64,000 nucleotides of DNA, taken from NCBI RefSeq assembly GCF_019923725.1, contig NZ_JAHXRI010000010.1:210636-274635 (forward strand), written 5' to 3'. The notes beneath the pieces were generated by a model. That model searched no databases. It was not told where the DNA came from and worked only from the letters and a program-made list of their open reading frames with translations. This document shows, one piece after another, positions 10,966 through 15,572 of the stretch. Each line of letters begins with the position of its first letter. Position 1 is the stretch's first letter. The DNA comes from Zwartia hollandica. GTDB lineage: Bacteria > Pseudomonadota > Gammaproteobacteria > Burkholderiales > Burkholderiaceae_B. Both the position numbers and the translations under genes were made by a program.

Positions 10966-11373
10966 TTACTGCTCTTTAATCACGTTAATGTGCCCGCCAC
11001 AGGAGACGAAGCAGCTGCGGTAGTTTTCATCGCAACGATAGGTATTGGGCGACGCCCAGCAGCTGTTTTGATAGCGCGAACACGACCTTGCGTCGTCTTT
11101 ATCTTTCGCTCGACGAATACAGTTTTGATAATTCCAACGATTCTGTTGCTCACAAACCTGACGTTCATTCGCTGCACGCTGATTCTCATTACCAACACAG
11201 ACCTCACGTGCAATCGAACATTGCGCGACGCACTGGCGTCCCCCGTCTGTTGTGGGTGGATAGTACTCGTAGCGAACAAAGCTACACCCGGTCAACAACA
11301 GAAGACCAGCAACTACACAGAAGCGGCGTAACAGGCGACTAGTTGTCCCTGAGAAACCAAAGGCGGTAAACAT
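10966..11373 (-). CDS. Cysteine-rich lipoprotein, unknown function
   Basis: About 135 residues from MFTAFGFSG, chosen because AGGTGGAG lies 8 bases upstream; an in-frame ATG at 11394 that overlaps the previous stop is the alternative. The signal peptide ends in a lipobox, VAGLLLLTGC. The mature protein contains about eleven cysteines in pairs such as CVAQCSIAREVC, CEQQNRWNYQNC, CSRYQNSC and CDENYRSCFVSC, suggesting several disulfides. No family recognised. It is the last gene of the leftward exported-protein operon that starts with the secreted protein at 14902. Confidence 0.7.
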   Translation of the reverse strand: MFTAFGFSGTTSRLLRRFCVVAGLLLLTGCSFVRYEYYPPTTDGGRQCVAQCSIAREVCVGNENQRAANERQVCEQQNRWNYQNCIRRAKDKDDARSCSRYQNSCWASPNTYRCDENYRSCFVSCGGHINVIKEQ

Positions 11374-11390
11374 ACTTAGCACTCCACCTA

Positions 11391-12941
11391 TCATCTCTTG
11401 TGCGTAATTGAAACAACACAACCGGAGTCGATAGGATGCCACGCAGGCAAGTCAGCGAGCTCAGCCACGACCATCCTAAACGTAGGCAATGTTCCTTGAT
11501 AAGTCGTTGAACCACTTGACTCCACTGTTTTACGACGCTCCAGCCCACTCACAACACAGACGCGATTTGGCGTAGCCGAATCAACATTAAATGTTGGATA
11601 GTTATTCGCCGCTTGGCGACCAGGTTCAACGGTGATCATCTTGTCATTACGATTTGCCGTCGTCGCATCGGGAGTAATGACCAATACTGGTTGCGCGCTC
11701 GTACTTGCAGGAGCGGAGGCTGCTGCGGCTTTGGCAGAGGGAGTAGACGAGATCGGCTTAGGTCTGGGTGTTACGTAACCATCAGCTGAAGGACCACTAC
11801 CGCCTTTGGTGAGGGGTGGATTGACAGGCGTGGGCAGGTTGGGCGACGGCACGGAGCCTATTGATTTTTGAGGCACCTTCATCTTGATAGGAACCGGTAC
11901 AAGTACAGGCGTTTTCTGCTCAGCCTTCGGTGGAATCAACATCGGTGTCTGTTGATCCACCTTAGGGGGGATCAGCATCGGTGTCTGTTGATCCACCTTA
12001 GGGGGGATCAACATCGGTGTCTGTTGGTCCACCTTAGGGGGGATCCGCATCGGTGTCTGTTGATCCACCTTAGGGGGGATCAACATCGGTGTCTGTTGGT
12101 CCACCTTAGGGGGGATCCGCATCGGTGTCTGTTGATCCACCTTAGGGGGGATCAACATCGGTGTCTGTTGATCCACCTTAGGGGGGATCAACATCGGTGT
12201 CTGTTGATCCACCTTAGGGGGGATCAACATCGGTGTCTGTTGATCCACCTTAGGGGGGATCAACATCGGTGTTTGTTGGTCCACCTTAGGGGGGATCCGC
12301 ATCGGTGTTTGTTGATCCACCTTAGGGGGGATCAACATCGGTGTCTGTTGATCCACCTTAGGGGGGATCAACATCGGTGTCTGTTGATCCACCTTAGGGG
12401 GGATCAACATCGGTGTCTGTTGGTCCACCTTAGGGGGGATCCGCATCGGTGTTTGTTGGTCCACCTTAGGGGGGATCAACATCGGTGTCTGTTGATCCAC
12501 CTTAGGGGGGATCAACATCGGTGTCTGTTGATCCACCTTAGGGGGGATCAACATCGGTGTCTGTTGGTCCACCTTAGGGGGGATCAACATCGGTGTCTGT
12601 TGGTCCACCTTAGGGGGGATCCGCATCGGTGTTTGTTGGTCCACCTTAGGGGGTAAAGCTGCTGGCACCGTTGTTACAGGTGGTTTAGCGGCGGGATTCT
12701 GATTCGAGGTTCCGATCGAAGGTGCACCCACTTGGCTCGGCTTAGTCCCCGTGACCTGACCGGTAGCTTGGCTATTACTTGTCACTGGGGCTGGGCCACA
12801 GTTCAATCCGCCACGGCCTTGTGCACTGGCAGCGTTACAATTTTTTGCCACGGCTGGAGCGCTGAGCAGCGGCTCAATCGTCACGAGCGCAGCAACAATC
12901 AGAAGTAACGACTTAATTCTATGTTCAATTTTCATTGTCAT
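11391..12941 (-). CDS. Exported proline-rich protein with 20 perfect 12-residue repeats
   Basis: About 516 residues. The N-terminus MTMKIEHRIKSLLLIVAALV begins a signal peptide ending near APAVA. A short segment with two Cys (KNCNAA, GGLNCGPAP) and a Ser/Gln/Pro linker follow, then twenty consecutive copies of PPKVDQQTPMLI, five of which have R in place of L, and one decayed copy PPKAEQKTPVLV. A Pro/Ser/Ala stretch leads to a C-terminal domain of about 90 residues with two more Cys (NRVCVVSG, DSGCVVSI). The repeat would form an extended, proline-rich rod. The start overlaps the stop of the TpsB-like gene as ATGA, so the pair is translationally coupled. It has no TPS secretion domain as TpsA exoproteins do. 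Function unknown; a surface stalk or envelope spacer is a guess. Confidence 0.75.
   Translation of the reverse strand: MTMKIEHRIKSLLLIVAALVTIEPLLSAPAVAKNCNAASAQGRGGLNCGPAPVTSNSQATGQVTGTKPSQVGAPSIGTSNQNPAAKPPVTTVPAALPPKVDQQTPMRIPPKVDQQTPMLIPPKVDQQTPMLIPPKVDQQTPMLIPPKVDQQTPMLIPPKVDQQTPMRIPPKVDQQTPMLIPPKVDQQTPMLIPPKVDQQTPMLIPPKVDQQTPMRIPPKVDQQTPMLIPPKVDQQTPMLIPPKVDQQTPMLIPPKVDQQTPMLIPPKVDQQTPMRIPPKVDQQTPMLIPPKVDQQTPMRIPPKVDQQTPMLIPPKVDQQTPMLIPPKVDQQTPMLIPPKAEQKTPVLVPVPIKMKVPQKSIGSVPSPNLPTPVNPPLTKGGSGPSADGYVTPRPKPISSTPSAKAAAASAPASTSAQPVLVITPDATTANRNDKMITVEPGRQAANNYPTFNVDSATPNRVCVVSGLERRKTVESSGSTTYQGTLPTFRMVVAELADLPAWHPIDSGCVVSITHKR
11930..12650. repeat. Array of 36-bp tandem repeats (about 20 units)
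   Basis: Head-to-tail 36-base units with almost no variation. Differences are limited to ATC-AAC versus ATC-CGC at the Leu/Arg codon and third-position changes (GATCCACC versus GGTCCACC, GTCTG versus GTTTG). There are no unique spacers, so this is not CRISPR. Period 36 keeps the reading frame whatever the copy number. The near identity, including silent positions, points to recent expansion or ongoing homogenisation. Confidence 0.95.
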
Positions 12942-14554
12942 CACCACGCTTGCGTCAATTGAATCCAGACCGCGGGCGAGTAGGCTGGAGTTGAATATCC
13001 CGCGATCAAGGGCAGGCCCACCCAAGCCCGTACTGAAAAGTTCTCTTGTGATCTTGTTTGAACACCAATACCCACAGATGCCAACGGAGTTTCATTTAGC
13101 ATTCCTGGTATCGGCGTGTTTTGCTTTAACCAACCTGCATCAAAAAATGCAAAGGGTGCAACAGAATCCAAATACTTGGCGCCAACGTGATAGAACTGAC
13201 TAATTTCTGCCGTTGCTGCAATCCCGGAGTCTCCAATCAACTCGGCGTATCCGTAACCCCGCAATCTAGTGCGGTCACCCAGAAAATACTTCTCGGTTGT
13301 CGGCACACTCGAGGTCGTAATTTGCGCATTCGCCTCTAGTCTTAAACCTAGACCTGCAGACAAGTTACTTAGTGGCATGGTGTAACCCGCACCAAGTCGC
13401 AAGTGATAAAAATTTGGATCACTGACTGCTTGTGTGCCGTAATACTGTCGATCTGCTACACCACCGGTCAACGTCAATCCTGCGCGGAATGTAGAGCCAT
13501 CCCGATAATTGTTGCTGTACACCAGGAATTGTCTAAACACACCCGCTTTTGTATCGTTCATCCCGGTCAAGGAATTGTCCAGTGCTGAATAGCCAACTTC
13601 TGACATGGTGTAGAGAAAGCTGTGTGCGTCTCGATGGATTGGGTAACCAACCACAACGTTCGCCATCACAGTATTCTGGAATAAATTTTGAGGTGTCTGA
13701 TTGATACCGGTGTACAAGCTACGCGTCAAGCCTGTACCAACGGTCGCCTCGGCATACCACCCATCCGAGCCAAAGGGTGCGCGATAGGTAAGAGAACCAA
13801 ACACACCACTCCAGTTATTGTTGAAATCAGCACTCGGCAACACGTTGATACGGAACATATCTCCCGGTGTCACGGTCGAGTAGACTTCTTCAGACAAAAC
13901 AGCGTAGAGGCCTTTACCAAAATTTCGGGGGAGATTGTCTAAAGAAAGACTACCTCTTTGCTTAACAGTCTTGACCGCAATCTTCAGTACGTCATCGCCA
14001 ACATCCTGCGAAGAAACAAACTCAGAAGTGAGAGATACGCCGGACAAGTCACGCGCAAGCATCATCCCCCGCTCAAAGCGCTCGAGTGTTAGCGGCTGAT
14101 CGCCGACTGCTGTCATCACATACTTATGGATCGTTTGGGCTAACGCAGGCGTTGCCCCAGATATTTCGATTTTTGATAGTCGTCCCTCGTGAACGGTTAG
14201 TTGGGCACTATTGCCCGAATGCGCTACATGGACATCGACAAGAAAGTAACCGTCTTCGCGATAGATTAGCTGGATCGCCTCTGCAATATTCTCAATATTG
14301 AACTCCGACGATTGTTTGTGCGCATGTTCAACCGCGAAGAGCCACAGTTGCTGAGGATCATAGGCAGTCACCCCAGCTAAAGATATATTGTTGTAGCCCT
14401 GAGGATTAACAACAGGCGCGGTCTGGGCCATCACACCGAAGGTGCAAGTGCCCAATAGCGCACAGAGCCAAAGACGGAGAGTATTTTTCTTGATCGACAC
14501 ACAGCAGCGCAACAAGTGTTGTGTGATTGTTCTTGTTTTTCTGTAAAAATTCAC
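12941..14554 (-). CDS. Two-partner-secretion outer-membrane transporter (TpsB/FhaC/ShlB family)
   Basis: About 537 residues with an uncleaved N-terminus TLRLWLCALLGTCTFGVMAQ as signal peptide. A POTRA-like region follows (IQLIYREDGYFLVDVHVA, then LTVHEGRLSKIEISGATP, about residues 85-135), then a long beta-rich barrel (FGSLTYRAPFGSDGWYAEA, LFQNTVMANVVVGYPI, FLGDRTRLRGYGYAEL) ending in a C-terminal Trp, typical for BAM-dependent barrels. In this family the FLGDRTRLRGY-like segment is conserved in the L6 loop. I chose the GTG at 14554, which has GGAG 6 bases upstream; the longer TTG start at 14566 would contain that Shine-Dalgarno. Its usual partner, a TpsA exoprotein, is missing; the coupled downstream gene encodes the repeat protein instead. 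Confidence 0.85.
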   Translation of the reverse strand: MNFYRKTRTITQHLLRCCVSIKKNTLRLWLCALLGTCTFGVMAQTAPVVNPQGYNNISLAGVTAYDPQQLWLFAVEHAHKQSSEFNIENIAEAIQLIYREDGYFLVDVHVAHSGNSAQLTVHEGRLSKIEISGATPALAQTIHKYVMTAVGDQPLTLERFERGMMLARDLSGVSLTSEFVSSQDVGDDVLKIAVKTVKQRGSLSLDNLPRNFGKGLYAVLSEEVYSTVTPGDMFRINVLPSADFNNNWSGVFGSLTYRAPFGSDGWYAEATVGTGLTRSLYTGINQTPQNLFQNTVMANVVVGYPIHRDAHSFLYTMSEVGYSALDNSLTGMNDTKAGVFRQFLVYSNNYRDGSTFRAGLTLTGGVADRQYYGTQAVSDPNFYHLRLGAGYTMPLSNLSAGLGLRLEANAQITTSSVPTTEKYFLGDRTRLRGYGYAELIGDSGIAATAEISQFYHVGAKYLDSVAPFAFFDAGWLKQNTPIPGMLNETPLASVGIGVQTRSQENFSVRAWVGLPLIAGYSTPAYSPAVWIQLTQAW

Positions 14555-14569
14555 TGAGTGCTCCAATCG

Positions 14570-14902
14570 TTAATTGCACTTCACGTATTTATTCTGCTTG
14601 GCATCCACCAGATAGCTCTCAAACACTAGCAAGGGATCGAATTTATCGTTACCTAATATTGCATATTTAAAACCAGCGGGCACAACCTGATTCGATCCAA
14701 ACCAAGAAAATGCGGACATGAATTTTTCTGTCTTGCCGTCAATCGTCAAGAACACATCATTATTTGCATTGGATCGATCAAACCTGAATTCAACGACCGT
14801 CCGCTCGTGGCAAAAAACAACGCCCTCTGGAACCTCGGTTGCGAGACTTCCGCTAGCGTGGGCAGCGAAAGCCATCAGAGCCGCAAGAATGATCTTTTTC
14901 AA
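14570..14902 (-). CDS. Small secreted protein of unknown function
   Basis: About 110 residues. Taking the TTG at 14902 gives an ideal signal peptide, MKKIILAALMAFAAHASGSLA; longer in-frame starts (GTG 14914, TTG 14944) have no better ribosome binding site. The mature protein is about 90 residues, with two cysteines (VVFCHERTV and the C-terminal KCN) and several beta-strand-like segments (FLTIDGKTEKFMSAFSWFG). No family recognised. It lies 15 bases upstream of the TpsB-like gene on the same strand, and all four genes of the run encode exported proteins, so it is likely part of the same envelope function. Confidence 0.6.
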   Translation of the reverse strand: MKKIILAALMAFAAHASGSLATEVPEGVVFCHERTVVEFRFDRSNANNDVFLTIDGKTEKFMSAFSWFGSNQVVPAGFKYAILGNDKFDPLLVFESYLVDAKQNKYVKCN

Positions 14903-14939
14903 TTGAGAATCCACTATTTTGTTAACATGTTTACATCTG

Positions 14940-14956
14940 TGCAATCAATTGTTGCA
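14940..14956. promoter_or_regulatory. Inverted repeat between the secreted-protein operon and tetR
   Basis: TGCAA and TTGCA arms surround a 7-base centre containing CAATTG, in the divergent intergenic region between the exported-protein operon and the TetR-type gene. It could be an operator for either direction; no similarity to the candidate operator at 17226-17243. Confidence 0.3.
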
Positions 14957-14999: not shown

Positions 15000-15572
15000 A
15001 TGGAAGCCCAAAAGACCGACCTTAAACGGCAACGCCTAGAGACGATCATTGATATCGCTCATCGTCTGTTTGAGGAGAGCGGATATGAAAACGTTGGCAT
15101 CCGGGAAATCTGCCAAGCTGCTGGCCTCAGCCCGACCCAGCTCTATAGACTTGGAGTTTCTAAACAGGATTTATTGGCCGAAGTCATTTTGCGGGTAAAC
15201 CAGAGACAGATCGCAAATATCAAGCCTTTCTCCGCGCGCGGATTTAAGTCAGCACAGGCCTATATTGAGACCTACTTGCTCAAACTCTACGAGGCTGATA
15301 TCGCAATTAAAGGCATCCGCGCCGAGGGCGCCGCCTTTGGCTGGAAGTGGTCAGGAAAATATGAAGAGCTCATCATCGCGCAAGTATTTCAGCTTATTCA
15401 ACCGATCACCGACGCACTCGCGCATGACCAGTACGATGAAATACAAGCACGCTGCTACGCGATATGGTCTCTGTACTACGTCGGCTACCGACACGCCGTG
15501 ATGCATCACGGCGATGCCAAAGCGTGCATACATGGCATCAAACCCAGTCTCGCATTATGTTTGAAACGCTAA
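15000..15572 (+). CDS. TetR/AcrR-family transcriptional regulator
   Basis: 190 residues. The N-terminal helix-turn-helix is clear: IIDIAHRLFEESGYENVGI (about 16-34), REICQAAGLSPTQLYRL (35-51, recognition helix TQLYRL), then the family's typical K-x-x-LLAEV helix. The C-terminal ligand-binding domain is generic, with the family's poor conservation. GGAGG lies 11 bases before the ATG. It converges with the thiamine-diphosphate enzyme gene (4-base overlap of the stops) and is divergent from the exported-protein operon. A candidate TetR-type palindrome lies upstream of the ThDP enzyme, so this regulator may control that enzyme and the neighbouring Bug gene. Confidence 0.9.
   Translation: MEAQKTDLKRQRLETIIDIAHRLFEESGYENVGIREICQAAGLSPTQLYRLGVSKQDLLAEVILRVNQRQIANIKPFSARGFKSAQAYIETYLLKLYEADIAIKGIRAEGAAFGWKWSGKYEELIIAQVFQLIQPITDALAHDQYDEIQARCYAIWSLYYVGYRHAVMHHGDAKACIHGIKPSLALCLKR

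Follow-up and report, generated by a model that had tools for sequence, protein, structure and literature searches.

Gene organization of the locus

The DNA studied here (the window) is a stretch of 64,000 nucleotides from Zwartia hollandica, positions 210,636 to 274,635 of contig NZ_JAHXRI010000010.1 (assembly GCF_019923725.1). At positions 14944-10966 of the window lie four tightly packed leftward genes in the order g1-g2-g3-g4, which a preliminary description had read as encoding a small secreted protein, an outer-membrane barrel of the TpsB type (the transporter of two-partner secretion, TPS), a repeat protein and a Cys-rich lipoprotein; all four open reading frames (ORFs) were present. 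The longest frame of g1 (14570..14944, minus strand) encodes 124 residues with a leader-like start and 2 conserved Cys in the mature part, and its exact start is not settled. The barrel gene g2 (12941..14554, minus strand; 537 residues) has its best start at a GTG at 14554, with GGAG ahead of it and 15 bases past g1, and stops at 12941. Within TGATG (12939..12943, minus strand) the stop of g2 overlaps the start of g3, which may couple the translation of the two genes. The repeat protein, a predicted exoprotein of 516 residues, is encoded by g3 (11391..12941, minus strand) from an ATG at 12941 to a stop at 11391, and has orthologs at 68% and 53% identity. The lipoprotein gene g4 (10966..11373, minus strand; 135 residues) starts with an ATG at 11373, 17 bases past g3, and stops at 10966; its precursor contains 12 Cys, and the lipobox Cys30 is invariant in all four aligned sequences.

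The ratio of nonsynonymous to synonymous substitution rates (dN/dS) was calculated against the orthologs in G162, a relative with all four genes. It was 0.12 for g1, 0.06 for g2, 0.12 for g4 and, within g3, 0.17 for residues 1-93 (leader and head) and 0.06 for the C-terminal part; synonymous estimates against a second relative, G172, were saturated. Since these ratios fall between 0.06 and 0.17, the set is more than a chance arrangement, and all four genes are real and under purifying selection. The most constrained parts were g2 and the g3 tail, and the g3 rod was among the least constrained. No significant Pfam or NCBIfam match was found for g1, g3 or g4, and none of the four proteins matched defence or phage families.

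The g2 barrel

The g2 protein matched ShlB PF03865 (43.2 bits, cut-off 22.7) and Omp85 PF01103 (28.9 bits, cut-off 24), in agreement with the barrel family first assigned to it, while POTRA_2 scored 19.3 bits, below its cut-off of 24. In the structural model, two beta-alpha-alpha-beta-beta POTRA units were seen at residues 56-123 and 126-195, with a predicted local distance difference test score (pLDDT) of 73-83 across the first unit and a drop from 74 to 48 along the second. Residues 196-537, the barrel half, scored below 50 and are unreliable; the leader/POTRA part alone is usable. A Foldseek search with the model gave 61 matches at E <= 0.001, with BamA, CdiB, FhaC and Toc75 among the 50 listed; the whole-chain template-modelling scores were low, and the matches support at most an Omp85 protein with POTRA domains. 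A sequence search of solved structures with g2 returned nothing significant.

Two barrel motifs are present in g2, RLRGYGY for the L6 VRG(F/Y) signature and FFDAG for F/GxDxG; just 10 of 31 comparator TpsB proteins have F, Y or A after RG. The strand-1 motif DxxG, given as universal among TpsB proteins in the available text of PMC7644211, is replaced by DNLP in g2, a weak difference as DxxG aligned in just 13 of the 31 comparators. With the leader included, 55 residues precede POTRA1 in g2, compared with 56-128 in the comparators. The leader takes up about 44 of these and leaves about 11 mature residues, compared with about 28 in the shortest comparator (L004), with leader ends judged by eye. 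From its sequence, g2 appears to lack the N-terminal plug helix H1 and the linker of TpsB proteins; its counterpart in G172 is cut at the N-terminus by a contig end and is uninformative on both. The same text places H1 in TpsB proteins and does not find it in BamA or TamA, and it reports continued secretion by CdiB from which H1 and linker had been removed (PMC7644211), so the missing parts do not exclude secretion by g2.

TpsB genes matched in 25 of 151 genomes of the family at E 1e-10, the host included, and g2 was 22-34% identical to the other TpsB proteins listed. In the barrel tree, g2 and its two orthologs formed one long separate branch (100/100), the placement of which is unsure because long branches meet there. 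A class-wide barrel profile at E <= 1e-15 matched 1 of 369 genomes, the host itself, at a strict limit that misses ordinary TpsB proteins. In viral contigs, 36 pattern matches gave no confirmed barrel, and 21 plasmid records all matched at less than 60% identity.

The g3 repeat protein

Three parts were distinguished in g3. The mature head (12666..12842, minus strand) is conserved, with 55 of 59 residues identical in G162 and 41 of 59 in G172, and its C-X12-C spacing is kept in all three proteins. The proline-rich repeat rod (11898..12653, minus strand) consists of 21 units of 12 residues at residues 97-348, detected by the program TRF as an array at 11924-12653 (period 36, 20.3 copies, 94% matches); the alignments with the orthologs gave 66 identical residues of 140 and 85 of 174. 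A poorly conserved linker follows (37 of 67 and 21 of 66 residues identical). The C-terminal domain (11391..11660, minus strand), a candidate pore anchor, showed 92% and 78% identity, with C-X45-C spacing kept in all three.

Without its leader, g3 has a computed mass of 51.9 kDa and 18.6% Pro, and contains no NPN. No TPS domain (no Pfam match) and no NPNG motif were found in g3, and a beta-helix is probably absent. Structure prediction of the C-terminal part gave a pLDDT of 34.5; its fold was not predicted, and the result was not used. The "rigid rod" and "disulfide-type domain" of the preliminary description are predictions from the sequence. The best match of the g3 tail among solved structures, by sequence search, had E 0.59, and no plasmid matched the tail at E 0.1. 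Among 399 genomes of the order, five tail matches were obtained at E <= 0.01, namely the host and four at 0.004-0.009, three of them with stops; these four were attributed to chance.

The g2+g3 pair in related genomes

The genus was sampled with 32 genomes, of which 18 reached 90% completeness with no more than 5% contamination, so absences are soft. The g3 tail was found in the host (G000), G162 (75% identity) and G172 (62%); a fourth, weak match, in G168, was discounted because its frame contains 4 stops. In G162 (public contig JANQYI010000015.1, Burkholderiaceae MAG_135), the complete set of four is present with its order unchanged, at identities of 77% for g1, 91% for g2, 68% for g3 and 84% for g4. 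In G172 (CALCPT010000474.1, uncultured Alcaligenaceae), the contig begins near the g2 start, and g2+g3 are followed by a different protein of 172 residues. The repeat protein thus keeps its place beside the TpsB-like gene in two relatives. In a collection of 84,980 species, two barrel peptide patterns led to confirmed loci in just G162 and G172, by a method that detects close relatives only, and in the 399 order genomes a credible g3 tail was found in the host alone. Downstream of g4 in G162 (L036 4620-9984) lie an ORF like a family A DNA polymerase and a phage-type integrase with an arm-binding domain, so the set adjoins a mobile element there.

Search for a classical TpsA

The host genome (99.7% complete, 25 contigs) gave one ShlB match and two Omp85 matches, the second being a protein of BamA length. 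As g2 is the sole ShlB match in the host and g3 overlaps it, g3 is the presumed partner of g2. The TPS domain PF05860 was not detected in the host genome in two profile searches; in the second, the same model matched 6 of 9 genomes, and the first was run without a control. It was likewise absent from G162. The preliminary description had argued that a classical tpsA gene elsewhere in the genome, together with an unconserved neighbourhood, would speak against coupling of the barrel to the repeat protein. In the host no such gene was found and the neighbourhood is shared with relatives, which bears out the picture of a TpsB-like barrel and, coupled to it, a repeat protein that lacks the TPS domain. 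A TpsB in a genome with no TPS protein is not unique to the window; in genome G055, too, a TpsB was matched but the TPS domain was not. G172 contains one TPS-domain gene, a frame of 325 residues on another contig in which the domain was confirmed. No TpsB gene was found in 3,000 of the 6,584 bases of that contig, and G172 was not searched for ShlB.

An autotransporter in the same slot

With the g4 profile, matches came from 8 of the 32 genomes of the genus and from 8 of the 399 of the order; the host is in both groups, which makes 15 genomes. In the fetched surroundings, g2+g3 stood beside g4 in two of them and an autotransporter in six, namely G157, G164 and G165 of the genus and G387, G394 and G557 of two other families; the remaining seven (G127, G060, G155 with a g4 fragment, G542, G181, G343 and G190) had neither core in the fetched stretch. 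The set of G165 consists of a TetR gene, g1 (60% identity), a 789-residue autotransporter and g4 (52%). That of G157 consists of a TetR gene, a DUF6134 protein, a 116-residue protein, an 896-residue autotransporter, a 154-residue protein and g4 (59%). Both autotransporters matched the PF03797 beta-domain at 87 bits, and similar sets were identified in G164, G387, G394 and G557 by tblastn; the G164 set is split across two contigs, which presumably belong together. A TetR gene was nearby in five of the six sets (G557 unmatched). A g1 gene was present in four (not in G157 or G387), at 61% identity in G164 and in the opposite direction in G394 and G557. The data indicate that g2+g3 occupies the slot of the autotransporter. 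That g4 elsewhere accompanies a classical type Va autotransporter is new in this analysis, and the earlier reading had missed that g1 and g4 are not specific to the g2+g3 pair.

When the 32 genus genomes were searched for the autotransporter, strong matches were obtained in G157, G164 and G165 only, and weak ones (E 1e-16 to 1e-17) in G159, G169 and G086; none was found in the host, G162 or G172. Autotransporter and g3 tail therefore occur in three genomes each with an overlap of 0, although the numbers are small. Synteny with the window extends to G127, where two proteins flanking the site on one side are 96-97% identical and one on the other side is 81% identical. In this genome g1 (63%) and g4 (71%) lie side by side with a gap of about 60 bases, and neither core is present, so the core is separable from g1 and g4. 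In the g4 tree, the autotransporter type and the g2/g3 type separated with weak support (68/78). The wider spread of the autotransporter core, over three families, is a hint, no more, that it is older than g2+g3. The g4 tree settles neither this point nor the history of G127, which may have lost a core or may always have been without.

The window has its own TetR-family regulator gene (15000..15572, plus strand; Pfam TetR_N 40.9 bits), divergent from the set, which also stands beside the g1/g4/autotransporter sets of relatives. A TetR gene beside g1 was found in 5 of 32 genus genomes, and the one beside the g1/g4 pair of G127 is a degenerate remnant (L077 8820-8969). The DUF6134 protein of G157, the only genome in the family scan, adjoins the TetR gene (L058 7971-8968); a similar ORF of 216 residues was seen in G166 (L059 89-739). 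The 116-residue secreted protein of G157 also occurs in G387, between g4 and the autotransporter. Lipoproteins of the g4 type were found in four other genera (L084, L085, L086 and L087) without an autotransporter or barrel match in the fetched stretch; the g4 family is therefore broader than this set. Sequence searches of solved structures gave a best E of 0.32 for g1 and no match for g4. An MliC-like fold for g1 found no support in family or structure searches.

Interpretation and alternatives

We propose, at roughly even odds (about 0.5), that g2 and g3 form a two-gene, type-V-like export pair in the slot that a one-gene type Va autotransporter takes beside g1 and g4 elsewhere. The proposal builds on the gene order, the g2/g3 overlap, the conservation of the pair, the lack of a TPS domain in the host and the autotransporter found in this slot in relatives. 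As the two cores alternate, g2+g3 would bring a passenger outside with two polypeptides, as the autotransporter does with one. All four proteins would be exported by Sec, and g2 would insert as a barrel of the Omp85 type and present two POTRA domains, at which the Cys-containing head of g3, rather than a TPS domain, would be recognised. The g3 protein would then cross g2 as an extended proline-rich chain, until its tail, having acquired its fold and a C-X45-C disulfide in the periplasm, halts in or under the pore and retains g3 on the cell with its length-variable repeat rod displayed outside. The g1 protein and the g4 lipoprotein might serve any passenger in the slot by assembly, stabilisation or anchoring. 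More tentatively, and at somewhat less than even odds, the pair could be a modular alternative to type Va in which a plug-less barrel exports a substrate with neither TPS domain nor beta-helix, the Cys-loop head being a new signal and the Cys-loop tail a pore lock; folding of a beta-helix could not then draw the proline-rich g3 out of the cell.

Several points weigh against an export pair. The exit of g3 through g2 and the contact between them are predicted, the model of g2 is unreliable over its barrel half and the g3 tail is without a model, and the pair is carried by just three loci. The linker missing in g2 is reported as essential in FhaC (available text of PMC7644211). The TPS-domain gene of G172 may pair with the g2 of that genome, which gave no g4 match at all with the g4 profile, and g4 may act alone, given the seven of 15 g4-bearing genomes with neither core. 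In the available text of PMC5422565, all TpsA proteins are said to have a TPS domain and a predicted beta-helix. The g3 protein shows neither, and the pair is therefore not filed as a type Vb system; most likely, it works like one.

A periplasmic role for g3 was also weighed. As a tether or scaffold, g3 would connect the g2 POTRA domains to peptidoglycan, g4 or the inner membrane, while g2 exports or inserts something else. Proline-rich periplasmic spacers are common, and Cys pairs suit the oxidising periplasm; against this, 252 fully extended residues exceed the width of the periplasm. The length and sequence of the rod also vary, the slot elsewhere holds an autotransporter, by type a surface-export protein, and the other candidate substrates, g1 and g4, also occur without g2. 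The absence of a TPS domain from g3 fits a tether, as does a g2 without H1 and linker, like BamA and TamA (PMC7644211). On balance we regard a tether as unlikely. Of the two options raised in the preliminary description, the unconventional substrate is favoured over the tether between barrel and lipoprotein, because g1 and g4 accompany autotransporters elsewhere.

It is improbable that the lipoprotein g4, or else g1, is what g2 brings to the surface, with g3 as a helper. The close packing of g2, g3 and g4 as one unit and the invariant g4 lipobox would agree with it, but g4 and g1 occur with autotransporters or without either core, and G172 has g2+g3 without a g4 match. We give as little weight to g2 being an ordinary, orphaned TpsB, the remnant of a classical TPS locus standing among unrelated genes. 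Such transporters are no rarity in the family, with matches in 25 of 151 genomes, G055 has a TpsB match without a TPS domain, and G172 has a TPS-domain gene; however, the TGATG overlap, the co-occurrence in three genomes and the dN/dS of 0.06 argue against an orphan, as do the low identity to other family TpsB proteins (22-34%) and the long separate branch.

Comparison with known systems

With two-partner secretion (type Vb; FhaC/FHA, CdiB/CdiA), the export pair proposed here shares an Omp85/ShlB barrel with two POTRA domains and the LRGY and FxDxG motifs, and a barrel and presumed partner encoded by one overlapping gene pair. It differs in that g3 lacks the N-terminal TPS domain of about 250 residues, found nowhere in the host genome, and NPNG, and is a proline-rich protein of about 52 kDa when mature instead of a beta-helix of 100-650 kDa; g2 apparently lacks the H1 plug and linker and has DNLP instead of DxxG. 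In the anchored TpsA proteins HMW1 and HxuA, a C-terminal disulfide anchor locks the exoprotein in the TpsB pore (available text of PMC5422565). In g3, too, a long stretch of repeats or rod is followed by a conserved C-terminal segment that contains one Cys pair, and by analogy the C-X45-C tail perhaps locks g3 in the pore. This pair lies in a domain of about 89 residues without a Pfam or NCBIfam match, and the anchor role is predicted. The type Va autotransporter of the relatives shares the slot beside TetR/g1 and g4, but is one polypeptide with PF03797 barrel and passenger, without a match in the host; neither g2 nor g3 matched PF03797 in Pfam.

A ShlB barrel adjoining a gene without a detected TPS domain was also seen with serine hydrolases of the beta-lactamase family. 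On Mesorhizobium ciceri plasmid NC_014918.1 (L055 3423-7410), a TpsB gene, among the best-scoring plasmid matches to g2, directly follows the gene of a 720-residue protein in which peptidoglycan-binding and beta-lactamase domains were found, but no TPS domain. Within the window's family, the TpsB genes of G019 (L008 47-2859) and G055 (L007 1432-4291) fall on the branch of the Mesorhizobium gene (100/100) and likewise lie directly behind a hydrolase gene of this kind. The beta-lactamase domain of G019 scored 136.5 bits in 352 residues, with a near-identical stretch in G055; both hydrolase genes are cut by the locus ends, and G019 has one TPS-domain gene elsewhere in its genome. Here the partner family is different, and the barrel keeps a long segment ahead of POTRA1 and branches elsewhere. 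This lineage is possibly another TpsB-like barrel with a non-TPS partner, and a second TpsB lineage with a non-TPS neighbour makes the reading of g2+g3 less odd.

Export by TpsB proteins is described as dependent on the TPS domain, with beta-helix folding outside the cell as a likely driving force. If the export pair is real, a natural pair without TPS domain, beta-helix, plug helix and linker would put those assumptions within reach of a direct test. That a one-gene autotransporter alternates in one slot with a two-gene barrel and passenger bears on the kinship of type V subtypes, and the alternating cores point to g1 and g4 as possible autotransporter accessory proteins. In the open-licence literature on TPS variants and autotransporters, the titles and opening lines of abstracts of part of the matches contained no description of this set.

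Other observations

On Sphingobium indicum plasmid NZ_CP013072.1 (L056 5665-9755), a TpsB gene is followed by genes for a 2OG-Fe(II) oxygenase and a 463-residue hypothetical protein without a Pfam match. The guanine-cytosine content of the g1-g4 set was 0.47-0.55 per kb, near that of the flanks. The 6 promoter-like sites (5.0 in shuffles) and 9 terminator-like sites (6.6 in shuffles) were uninformative. On the plus strand, an open frame of 262 residues runs antisense to the g3 repeats at 11868-12656; it is an artefact of the 36-base period of the array.

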